DNA from: Aureimonas jatrophae | GTDB lineage: Bacteria; Pseudomonadota; Alphaproteobacteria; Rhizobiales; Rhizobiaceae | Assembly (NCBI RefSeq): GCF_900104035.1 | Contig: NZ_FNIT01000005.1 | Location: 62,001-126,000 of the forward strand | Length of the DNA: 64,000 nucleotides | Direction: 5' to 3' | Shown: positions 41,735-55,409 of the stretch, in pieces | Position numbering within the stretch: position 1 is the first letter of the stretch | Layout of the letters: each line of letters opens with the position of its first letter | Position numbers and translations under genes: made by a program | The notes under the pieces: model-generated | The model's input: the letters and a program-made list of their open reading frames with translations, nothing else | What the model was told of the DNA's origin: nothing | The model's database searches: none

Positions 41735-42463
41735 TCAGGCCGACTGCGCGCCGGAGACGGCGGCATCGGAGATCGACGTGGTCCGGTCGCCCTTGGGTCG
41801 ATCCGTTTCCATCTGGTTGCCGGTCTTGATGTAGTAGATGGTCTCCGCGATGTTGGTCGCGTGGTCGCCGATCCGCTCGATGTTCTTGGCGGAGAACAGA
41901 AGATGCGTGCAGGCGGTGATGTTGCGCGGATCCTCCATCATGTAGGTCAGGAGCTCGCGGAAGATCGACGTGTACATCGCGTCGATCTCCTCGTCGCCCG
42001 AGCGGATCGCCTCGGCGCGTACGTGGTCGCGCGTCGCGTAGGCGTCGAGCACGTCCTTGAGCTGGCCGAGCGCAAGCTCCGACAGGTGCTCGATACCGCG
42101 CACGAGCTGCACCGGCTGCGAATGCTCGTGCACCGCGATGACGCGCTTGGCGATGTTCTTGCCAAGATCGCCGATCCGCTCGAGATCGTTGGAGATGCGG
42201 ATCGCGCCGACGATCTCGCGCAGGTCCTGCGCCATCGGCTGACGCTTGGCGATGGTCATGATGGCGCGCTCGTCGAGCTCGCGCTGCGCGGCGTCCAGCA
42301 GCACGTCGTCGGCGACCACCGCCTGGGCGAGGCCCCAATCGGAGCGGATCAACGCCGCCACCGACTGCTCGACCATGCGCTCGGCCTGCCCGCCCATCTC
42401 GGAGATGCGACGCAGGATGAACTTCAGCTCCTGGTCGTAGGACGAAACGATATGGTGTTCCAT
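41735..42463 (-). CDS. phoU: Phosphate signalling complex protein PhoU
   Basis: A peripheral regulator that links the Pst transporter to PhoR and restrains phosphate uptake and signalling. The 242-residue protein consists of two three-helix repeats with the metal-binding motifs ExxxD: VDDVLLDAAQRELDERAIMTIAKRQPMAQDLREIVGAIRISNDLERIGDLGKNIAKR in the first half (key residues E, D, R around ERIGDLGKN) and ERIGDHATNIAETIYY in the second. The start is ATG 42463. It lies between pstB (46 bases upstream) and phoB (8 bases downstream), the standard order. Confidence 0.95.
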   Translation of the reverse strand: MEHHIVSSYDQELKFILRRISEMGGQAERMVEQSVAALIRSDWGLAQAVVADDVLLDAAQRELDERAIMTIAKRQPMAQDLREIVGAIRISNDLERIGDLGKNIAKRVIAVHEHSQPVQLVRGIEHLSELALGQLKDVLDAYATRDHVRAEAIRSGDEEIDAMYTSIFRELLTYMMEDPRNITACTHLLFSAKNIERIGDHATNIAETIYYIKTGNQMETDRPKGDRTTSISDAAVSGAQSA

Positions 42464-42509
42464 GGGGATGCCCTCCCTGCCGGTGCGGCGCCGGCCTTCC
42501 TGTCGCGGG

Positions 42510-53547: not shown

Positions 53548-54537
53548 TCATGGGTCGGGAACCAGCACGATCTTGCCGATATGATCGTCGTCCATGTGTC
53601 GGTGCGCTTCCGCGGCTTTGGAGAAGGGATAGACCGTGTCGATCAGCGGCTTCACGGTTCCGTTCGCCAGAAGCGGCCAGACCTCGCGCTCCAGTTCGGC
53701 GGCCAGTTGCGCCTTGAAGGCGACGTCCCGCGCGCGCAGCGTCGAGCCCGTCAGCGTCAGGCGCTTGGTCATCACCAGACCGAGGTCGATCTCGGCGCGC
53801 TGGCCTCGCAGATAGGCGATCTGCACGATGCGCCCGTCGGGTGCCGCGACCTGAAGGTTGCGCGCGGTGTAGTCGCCGCCCACCATGTCGAGCGTCAGGT
53901 CGACGCCGCCCCAACTGCGCAGCCGCCCCACGAAATCCTCGCGGCGGTAGTCGATCGCAAGCTCGGCTCCGAGCCGGAGCGCGGCCTCGACCTTTTCCGG
54001 GCCTCCCACGGTCGCGGCGACGCGGGCGCCGCGTGCATGGGCGAGCTGGATGGCCACGGTCCCGATGCCGGACGTTCCGCCATGCACCAGAAGGCGCTCG
54101 CCGCTTTGCAGCCCGCCGCGCTGGAAGACGTTGTGCCAGACCGTGAAGAAGGTTTCCGGGATCGCCGCGGCGTGAACCGAATCCAGATCGCCGGGGATCG
54201 GCAGGACGCTTCCCTCCGGCGCGATCGCGAAGCGCGCGTAGCCGCCGCCCGGCAGAAGGGCCATCACGCGATCGCCGGGCCGATACCGTCCGGAGCCCTC
54301 GCCCACGGCCTCGACGGTTCCGGCCACCTCGAGCCCCGGCCAGTCCGGCGCGCCCTTGGGAGGCGGATAATGACCGAGGCGCTGCAGGACGTCGGGTCGG
54401 TTGACGCCCGCCGCCTCGACCCGGATCAGGATCTCTCCGGTCCTGGGGCGAGGAATGGGCTCCCGGCGCAAGCGCAGCACCTCGGGGCCGCCGCCCGCAC
54501 CCTCGATGCCGACGACATCCATCTCCGATTCGTTCAT
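53548..54537 (-). CDS. NAD(P)H-quinone oxidoreductase (MDR superfamily, PIG3/QOR-type)
   Basis: A 329-residue zinc-free medium-chain reductase. Signatures are RVEAAGVNRPDVLQRLGHYPPPKGAPDWPGLEVAGTV at the N-terminus, GDRVMALLPGGGYARF, the NADPH-binding loop LLVHGGTSGIGTVAIQLAHARGARVAAT and DLTLDMVGGDYTARNL. It matches the PIG3-like quinone oxidoreductases that reduce quinones with one-electron chemistry. The start is ATG 54537. It runs away from the sRNA/rcdA region and is preceded by 353 bases without a protein gene. Confidence 0.9.
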   Translation of the reverse strand: MNESEMDVVGIEGAGGGPEVLRLRREPIPRPRTGEILIRVEAAGVNRPDVLQRLGHYPPPKGAPDWPGLEVAGTVEAVGEGSGRYRPGDRVMALLPGGGYARFAIAPEGSVLPIPGDLDSVHAAAIPETFFTVWHNVFQRGGLQSGERLLVHGGTSGIGTVAIQLAHARGARVAATVGGPEKVEAALRLGAELAIDYRREDFVGRLRSWGGVDLTLDMVGGDYTARNLQVAAPDGRIVQIAYLRGQRAEIDLGLVMTKRLTLTGSTLRARDVAFKAQLAAELEREVWPLLANGTVKPLIDTVYPFSKAAEAHRHMDDDHIGKIVLVPDP

Positions 54538-54653
54538 CGCGCCATTCCTCCTGCCGTGGCCTCGTCCAGGCCGGAGGGGAAAAGAGGGCGCAGAATGGGT
54601 GTGTTAACCCCTTCTTCACCATTCCGCGCGAAACTTCGCGTAGTCCAGATTTT

Positions 54654-54731
54654 GGTTTGGATGGCGATCCCTTCGGGTTGTCGAAGCCTCCCTGTTGAAC
54701 TTGAAGAGCCGCTCCGTGCGGCTCTCTTTTT
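54654..54731 (+). ncRNA. Candidate MmgR/suhB-family (alpha-r8) small RNA
   Basis: In a 353-base gap with no ORF I can support, about 78 bases read: a weak first stem around GATCCCTTCGGGTTGTC (54666-54682), a single-stranded pyrimidine-rich centre GCCTCCCTGTTGAACTTGA (54686-54704), and an 8-bp terminator hairpin followed by CTTTTT. The centre, with CCUCCCUGUU complementary to the ribosomal anti-SD partner sequence, the UUCGGGUU loop and the 3' hairpin match my memory of the rhizobial MmgR/suhB RNA, a trans-acting regulator of carbon storage. The 5' end is estimated from the family length of ~77 bases. The rest of the gap holds only unassigned sequence. Confidence 0.6.
54705..54731 (+). terminator. 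Intrinsic terminator of the small RNA
   Basis: AGAGCCGC (54705-54712), loop TCCGT, GCGGCTCT (54718-54725) form a perfect 8-bp stem followed by CTTTTT. No plus-strand protein gene precedes it (both flanking starts point away or lie downstream), so an RNA of its own must end here. Confidence 0.85.
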
Positions 54732-54890
54732 CCCGGGCCCGGGCCTTGCCCGAGCGCGTTAACCAAAGCCGGGCCGCGTGGCTTGCGCCGAGGGAACGAA
54801 GGGTAGAGGTTCGCGCGGACCGCAGCGTCGGAGACCGTGTCCGGTTTCCGCGTCGCGCAACGAATCCACGCCAGACCGGTTTAACGCCCC

Positions 54891-55409
54891 ATGACAGTCC
54901 AGATCGAGCATAGCGAGGGAACGCGGACGGTGCGCCTGGCCGAACGGCTGGCCTTTTCCGCCTCCTTCCAGCCGATCTTCGACGAAGGCATGACGCTTGT
55001 CGACGAGACGGCGGCGTATCTCGACGGGGACGGCCGTCGTGCGGCCCGCACGATCTCGAAGGGCGCCTCGACGCTCTACGCCGCCGAATCGATGCGCCTG
55101 ACGACGCGCCTGATGCAGATCGCCTCCTGGCTTCTTCTCCAGCGCGCCGCCAACCAGGGTGACATGTCGCGCGCCCAGGTCGAGGCCGAAAAGGTCAAGG
55201 TCAAGCTGGACGGTGTCGGATCAGGGGTGGACTCGCCCTTCTACGGCGACCTACCGGACGACTTCCGCTCGCTCGTGGACCGCGCCATCATGCTGGAGCG
55301 CCGCATCGCGCTTCTGGACCGCGAGATCTACGGTCGTCCGGACGACGACGAGGTCGGCAACCCGGTGGCCGAGCAAATCGATCTCCTGCGCACCGCCTTT
55401 GGCCGCTAA
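54891..55409 (+). CDS. rcdA: RcdA-family protease adaptor (DUF1465)
   Basis: RcdA is the adaptor that, together with CpdR and PopA, delivers CtrA and related proteins to ClpXP at the cell pole. The 172-residue all-helical protein has the DUF1465 pattern: VRLAERLAFSASFQPIFDEGMTLVDETAAYLDGDGR, YAAESMRLTTRLMQIASWLLLQRAANQGDMS, then FRSLVDRAIMLERRIALLDREIYG. The ATG at 54891 starts about 160 bases after the small-RNA terminator. A strong terminator follows. It is separate from cpdR in the window (53 kb away). Confidence 0.87.
   Translation: MTVQIEHSEGTRTVRLAERLAFSASFQPIFDEGMTLVDETAAYLDGDGRRAARTISKGASTLYAAESMRLTTRLMQIASWLLLQRAANQGDMSRAQVEAEKVKVKLDGVGSGVDSPFYGDLPDDFRSLVDRAIMLERRIALLDREIYGRPDDDEVGNPVAEQIDLLRTAFGR

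Follow-up and report, generated by a model that had tools for sequence, protein, structure and literature searches.

A small RNA that is real, old and found throughout the order lies in the intergenic gap of 353 bases at positions 54538-54890 of the window, by which I mean the whole 64-kb stretch of DNA analysed here (G000:C8:62001-126000 of a 4.59-Mb genome). It is a divergent homologue of BjrC1505 and not MmgR. The gap is bounded by the start of a quinone-oxidoreductase-like gene on one side and by rcdA on the other, and the RNA falls at about C8:116643-116731 in genome coordinates. The account that best explains the whole, held here with moderate confidence from the features of the DNA, is that of an anti-Shine-Dalgarno sRNA driven by CtrA that would dampen the expression of uptake and carbon genes. 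The features on which it is built are collected in Table 1, where the gene designated rcdA carries DUF1465, which I take to be the same as RcdA.

Table 1. Features of the putative sRNA locus and its neighbours, in window coordinates.
Feature	Position	Strand	Basis
Quinone-oxidoreductase-like gene, divergent neighbour	53548-54537	-	ORF and Pfam
CtrA-type box TTAA-CCCCTTC-TTCA, 7 of 8 matches, 39 bases before hairpin 1	54604-54618	+	Motif scan
Predicted sRNA gene of roughly 89 nt (5' end approximate)	54643-54731	+	Fold z -2.86; match to model R3
Hairpin 1 (GUCCAGAUUUUGGUUUGGAU)	54643-54662	+	Fold; covariation in A2 and A3
Hairpin 2, lineage-specific sequence	54663-54682	+	Fold; three pairs with two-sided changes within the genus
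Unpaired linker; its anti-Shine-Dalgarno core CCUCCCUGUU spans 54687-54696	54683-54704	+	Fold
Rho-independent terminator and T run	54705-54731	+	Perfect 8-bp stem at 54705-54725, then CTTTTT
Half-site GTTAACCAA between sRNA terminator and rcdA	54758-54766	+	Sequence scan
rcdA (DUF1465, PF07323)	54891-55409	+	Pfam, E 6.3e-51

Fold and family of the RNA

The sequence-only reading of this region had drawn attention to an orphan terminator with a perfect 8-bp stem and a T run in the gap and to a single-stranded anti-Shine-Dalgarno element. Both are present, the latter as CCTCCCTGTT, which is unpaired in the fold. A terminator scan of 1.2 kb gave three candidate sites where 0.7 would be expected. 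A discrete gene on the plus strand for an sRNA with its own terminator, as that reading proposed, is still the best interpretation of the sequence, and the 3' end it gave (54731) is kept here. The start it gave, 54654, is too late and cuts hairpin 1: when 54654-54733 is folded the 5' part pairs differently, whereas 54643-54731 folds into three clean hairpins (MFE -32.9 kcal/mol, equalled by 3 of 200 shuffles), and so the 5' end probably lies at 54643 or a few bases earlier.

The predicted helices were assessed in two alignments. A3 consists of 90 order-wide homologues drawn from the RcdA-based survey reported below, in which 128 sequences were usable and near-duplicates as well as some divergent ones were removed; the window's genus is absent and the upstream box left out. 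In it 94.2% of pair cells hold standard pairs, two-sided changes occur in 14 of the 19 pairs, and none of 500 shuffles reaches the observed values on any of five measures; structures slid along the alignment give 34-51%. A2 contains 13 sequences from the window's genus, where all cells (100%) are paired. The number of hairpin 2 pairs with two-sided changes was reached there by 6 of 500 shuffles, and the terminator is invariant and therefore uninformative on covariation. Kinship alone can lift related sequences above shuffles without any structure; the slid control and the variety of sequences in A3 argue against such an artefact. The core CCUCCCUGUU is among the most conserved stretches of both alignments.

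In its common order-wide form, hairpin 2 has the stem GAGUGG/CCACUC with CUCCUGU in the loop, and the window's genus has another hairpin in its place. Because of this difference a mixed alignment of both groups (A1, with model R1) recovered only the terminator helix, a problem that separate alignments solved. A small open reading frame through the RNA was considered and rejected, since the alignment indels are not multiples of three. Judged from the matches by DNA in 18 of 40 relatives, all beside rcdA, and from the covarying helices, the locus is more than a product of chance.

BjrC1505 was reportedly first described by Madhugiri and colleagues in 2012, from RNA blots of Bradyrhizobium japonicum, and is said to be lower in nodules. 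In print I found it solely as an Rfam name in one table, and a search of the literature on BjrC1505, rcdA and CtrA-related sRNAs, with most subscription journals outside its coverage, found no paper linking them. An Rfam scan of the entire window at gathering cut-offs returned a tRNA only. A sensitive scan of 54500-54900 placed BjrC1505 (RF02356) at the top, with 35.7 bits (E 3e-5) against a cut-off of 50, and below it SorX (25.5 bits), suhB/MmgR and SorY (15.2 bits), all of them under their cut-offs. At E up to 1 the BjrC1505 model finds a single place in the genome, the window locus, and at the same threshold 7 of 14 control genomes also match, none over the cut-off. When 13 of the 18 DNA-matched loci were scanned with it, 6 passed and 7 failed. 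One of the six, L021, is from the window's own genus and passes with 52.5 bits.

Model R3, with three helices, was built on A3 and includes neither the window's genus nor the box. It has a sole match in the window, at 54632-54727 (43.6 bits, E 1.7e-8). The plan of BjrC1505, namely hairpin 1, hairpin 2, unpaired core and terminator, is present, with a different primary sequence in hairpin 2, and this genus-specific hairpin is probably the cause of the low Rfam score. These comparisons indicate that the window copy is a divergent BjrC1505 homologue that falls below the Rfam gathering cut-off and hence is no filed member of the family. That the sRNA is real and homologous to BjrC1505 I regard as close to certain. 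GspR and EcpR1, considered as identities, were rejected, both being at other loci.

Occurrence beside rcdA and the upstream box

The DNA of the locus was sought in 41 genomes, its own and those of 40 relatives; besides its own genome 18 relatives match, and rcdA adjoins the match in all 18. Within the order, 169 of 199 genomes carry an RF02356 match, which exceeds the cut-off in 138; a sample of the class gave 20 of 190, the window's genome and a second one from the order among them. In a set of 30 loci (L031-L060) rcdA adjoins the BjrC1505-type RNA in every one. To avoid the bias of searching by the RNA, I anchored a further survey on RcdA (PF07323), which occurs in 179 of the 199 genomes of the order; 150 of these were taken, with one stretch upstream of rcdA from each. 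A strict expression for core and terminator on the same strand as rcdA and upstream of it matches in 134 of the 150. The opposite strand gives none in 150, and shuffles a mean of 0.3. The 16 loci without a match were inspected by eye: six have the RNA, six a degenerate form, and four none (G158, at a contig end; G031, whose match is on another contig; G081; and G220). R3 also matches 79 of 80 titled loci. These are the top 80 from a protein search that yielded at least 584 RcdA loci; they come mostly from Rhizobiaceae and include S. meliloti 4H41, S. fredii USDA 205, Agrobacterium vitis and Rhizobium leguminosarum; the one exception (L364) has 135 bases before rcdA.

The neighbourhood of rcdA, which the sequence-only reading had offered as a possible new context, is therefore the usual one for a BjrC1505-type RNA (134 of 150 genomes), and from this distribution it is probably the ancestral home as well. 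Six loci from families f27 and f30 (L076, L077, L149, L158, L178 and L179) keep box and terminator and have a degenerate core, for example CACCTCCACAAACTTT. Two BjrC1505 matches were found in each of six genomes (G041, G048, G073, G121, G143 and G223), which suggests occasional second copies. The 3.72-Mb S. meliloti record CP090106.1 (L061), on which rcdA and rpmE are found, has the label pSymB, probably in error for the chromosome.

The CtrA-type box upstream of hairpin 1 is the sole site in the window that matches TTAA-N7-TTAA at 7 or more of 8 positions. S. meliloti CtrA recognises TAA-N7-TTAAC (PMC3616915). The box was sought upstream of the core in 132 of the 134 core loci, the other two lying close to the end of a contig. 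Of the 132, 125 match at 7 or more of the 8 positions, leaving 7 below that level, and 58 are perfect; dinucleotide shuffles give 17.1 and 1.25, respectively, the next stretch upstream 7 of 126 with none perfect, and the interval between terminator and rcdA 30 of 132 with 10 perfect. Within a narrower stretch a spacer of 7 is found in 121 of 132 loci, as compared to 15-41 for spacers of 3-6 and 8-12, and 40 permuted consensuses yield a mean of 11 and a maximum of 58. All 38 of the 38 families have the box in at least one genome, and 30 have it in all genomes sampled. The box begins 38-39 bases ahead of hairpin 1 in 80 of the 109 loci measured. Among the 13 congeners with the RNA, 10 have the box at 7 of 8 or better and 3 at 6 of 8; these three, like the 7 weaker loci of the order, weigh against the account. 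The box at 54604-54618 matches the consensus of the CtrA regulon at 7 of 8 positions and stands where a promoter element would be predicted, and I consider it likely that the RNA is under CtrA control.

Box and RNA can also be followed where rcdA and the RNA part company. Twenty genomes of the order lack a PF07323 match, and the RNA is matched in 7 of these and not in 13, the 13 weighing against the account. Six of the 7 were examined: in each, R3 matches the RNA, a box that agrees at 7 or more of 8 positions accompanies it, the RNA is next to rpmE, and rcdA was not found in the stretch examined. In the window's genus the reverse is seen. Seven of 21 genomes (L239-L245) possess rcdA and gave no match to model R2 among 150 scored candidates per genome. 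Their rcdA loci show no R3 match (two partial R2 matches are insignificant), and the 600 bases preceding the RcdA match hold no N7 box that reaches 7 of 8. In five of the seven a perfect TTAA-N6-TTAA stands 187-195 bases ahead of that match, near the position of the window's half-site, and by eye TTAACCA occurs about as far from rcdA in congeners that lack the sRNA, in parallel to that half-site, which is perhaps part of rcdA's own promoter. A moved copy of the RNA is possible in these seven. Since box and RNA are kept together without rcdA in six loci and lost together with rcdA kept in seven congeners, the comparison indicates that they are inherited as one unit that is separable from rcdA. 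The predicted sRNA is also dispensable, to judge from the 7 of 21 genomes of the genus where it was not found. These seven genomes offer a natural deletion series for comparison.

The unit bears directly on two other ways of accounting for the locus. The RNA might be a premature terminator, that is, an attenuator in a long rcdA leader with no sRNA gene of its own. In 134 of 150 genomes it does precede rcdA on the strand of that gene, which accords with this, and read-through could feed rcdA; but a role as attenuator only is hard to square with an RNA and box that persist in six loci of genomes lacking PF07323 and with an rcdA that persists without either in seven congeners. Moreover, the distance from the core to the RcdA match ranges from 197 to 1268 bases, and the unpaired core is one of the best-conserved parts. 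I judge an attenuator alone to be improbable, and a partial role in cis beside an sRNA function to be possible. It is equally improbable that the RNA is real and has an unrelated promoter, the box belonging instead to rcdA or to the divergent gene. CtrA does activate rcdA in Caulobacter (PMC4433202), and the boxes sit within a shared intergenic region; however, the distance from box to hairpin 1 is nearly constant while that to rcdA varies, and the box is kept despite a different upstream gene (DUF1192 in S. meliloti, for instance, and 75 of the 79 readable titled loci) and persists where rcdA is not found. All 79 readable titled loci have a perfect second TTAA-N7-TTAA between terminator and rcdA. 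The window, unlike these 79 loci, has only the half-site in that interval.

The remaining alternative concerns identity. The sequence-only reading had assigned the RNA to the MmgR/suhB group (alphaR8, RF00519), as a limiter of PHB granules, and had named a search with the RF00519 model as the check. The plan is similar, with a hairpin, an anti-Shine-Dalgarno stretch and a terminator, and the model aligns end to end, yet the score is 18.3 bits where the cut-off demands 41, with E 0.21 for the 401 bases scanned. This score is background, since the model finds 14 places in the genome at 13.8-23.6 bits, none of which reaches the cut-off and two of which exceed the window's. BjrC1505 scores better, the alphaR8 10-mer UUUCCUCCCU is absent from the window RNA, which has GAAGCCUCCCUGUU instead, and no FGase gene adjoins, the genome's own FGase genes being elsewhere (G000:C8:160396-161091 and C4:49442-50065). 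Membership in alphaR8 is thus very improbable, and the only hint of a link to PHB is a single phasin gene among weakly predicted targets. Beside the two FGase genes (L028 and L029), Rfam gave no alphaR8 match even with E allowed up to 1, and the only CCTCCCT there comes after an ATG in L029; alphaR8 may be absent from this genome or strongly changed. The genome's best suhB match, at L001:1501-1583 (G000:C6:51894-51976; 23.6 bits), contains TTTCCTCCC, lies downstream of a gene for a LysR-type regulator, and looks like an AbcR locus and not like alphaR8.

With the RNA taken as a CtrA-controlled sRNA, published data on rcdA may be looked at again. CtrA ChIP-seq in S. meliloti marks the rcdA promoter region, and rcdA is unchanged on CtrA depletion (PMC4433202). 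Several start sites are known for rcdA in three agrobacteria, whose CtrA sites are described as further upstream than in Caulobacter (PMC10469942). An sRNA promoter in that region could account for part of the data. That the sRNA alone explains the S. meliloti case, with CtrA bound and rcdA unchanged, is an idea weakened by the second perfect box, between terminator and rcdA, and for the same reason the binding reported in PMC4433202 should not be credited to the sRNA alone. The wider reading, in which such sites in S. meliloti and agrobacteria are assigned in part to the sRNA promoter, is tentative, its chances falling somewhat short of even. It nonetheless carries a warning, that CtrA sites and extra start sites described near rcdA (PMC4433202, PMC10469942) may partly report the sRNA. 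For the BjrC1505 family, the gain lies in a locus and an architecture, together with a testable candidate for its regulator.

Predicted targets and a proposed mechanism

The core CCUCCCUGUU is complementary to ACAGGGAGG, a strong ribosome-binding site. The pattern CAGGGAGG-N3-11-ATG occurs 24 times in the window's own genome (the reversed pattern 6 times), at 21 distinct sites, 16 of which precede open reading frames of at least 100 amino acids. Seven of the 16 are assigned to transport by Pfam (a permease, an ABC ATPase, two TctC, two Peripla_BP_4 and one NMT1). The others include malic enzyme, PhoU, a phasin and a xylose-isomerase-like protein (below the Pfam cut-off), and one has no match. 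As a control I took 30 of the 93 matches to another Shine-Dalgarno-like pattern, CGAGGAGG. Here 3 of 16 open reading frames of at least 100 amino acids are transport-like (a piece of an ABC ATPase, a Na+/H+ antiporter subunit and a solute-binding protein), and 7 have no Pfam match. A crude filter for start codons was passed by 5 of 21 target and 4 of 30 control sites, and frames are open for at least 40 codons upstream at 14 of 21 and 21 of 30, so that neither set is clean.

Since 7 of 16 against 3 of 16 is no clear excess and the start codons are themselves predicted, the transport targets serve as a lead only, and the control result weakens this part of the account. Perhaps the targets are uptake and carbon genes, a proposal I would give somewhat less than an even chance. 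The predicted transport targets would fit, by analogy, the action of AbcR and SorX. One predicted target is in the window itself, a phoU-like gene whose start is preceded by CAGGGAGG (42461-42479, minus strand).

The proposed mechanism would run as follows. The stretch 54643-54731 would be transcribed independently as a trans-acting sRNA, and its promoter would include the box at 54604-54618. Phosphorylated CtrA would bind the box and switch the RNA on in a cell-cycle-dependent manner, and transcription would end at 54731. Hfq would then present the unpaired CCUCCCUGUU, which would pair with ribosome-binding sites of the ACAGGGAGG type and block translation of genes for uptake and carbon metabolism. 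If true, this would link the alphaproteobacterial cell-cycle clock to the translation of uptake genes.

Comparison with known systems

The RNA shares features with several alphaproteobacterial sRNAs. AlphaR8 (RF00519), which includes MmgR of S. meliloti and SisA-D of Caulobacter, is likewise short, with an anti-Shine-Dalgarno stretch and a terminator. SisA acts with Hfq, alphaR8 adjoins an FGase gene in most species, and its 10-mer is single-stranded (PMC12559287). It differs from the window RNA in its core and in its FGase locus, and the window's score is far below the cut-off. AbcR1 and AbcR2 (alpha-r15) repress transport and metabolic genes by anti-Shine-Dalgarno pairing (PMC8844928), as is predicted here, and differ in their locus beside lsrB (PMC7143759) and in their regulators, AbcR1 being under LsrB and AbcR2 under RpoH1 (PMC8844928). 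CcnA of Caulobacter is likewise an ncRNA whose promoter is predicted to contain a CtrA site, but it acts through a loop CCCC that pairs with GGGG in the ctrA and gcrA mRNAs (PMC8959179).

With SorX and SorY of Rhodobacter, CCUCCCUGUUG and an ACUU-like stretch before the terminator can be aligned, although the window reaches only 25.5 and 15.2 bits against cut-offs of 46.6 (RF02784) and 111. SorX targets the mRNA of a spermidine transporter and is cut from a 3' UTR (PMC8625941), whereas the window RNA (54643-54731) follows no gene on its strand. The closest likeness is to BjrC1505 (RF02356), with which the window RNA has in common an alignment over the full length, a similar terminator, the core CCUCCCUGU and, in the loci examined, the position upstream of rcdA; it differs in its score of 35.7 bits, below 50, and in the hairpin 2 replaced in the window's genus. 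The models of BjrC1505, SorX and SorY have CCUCCCUGUU and the ACUU-like stretch before the terminator in common (window 54660-54731), and the three may constitute one superfamily across Alphaproteobacteria.
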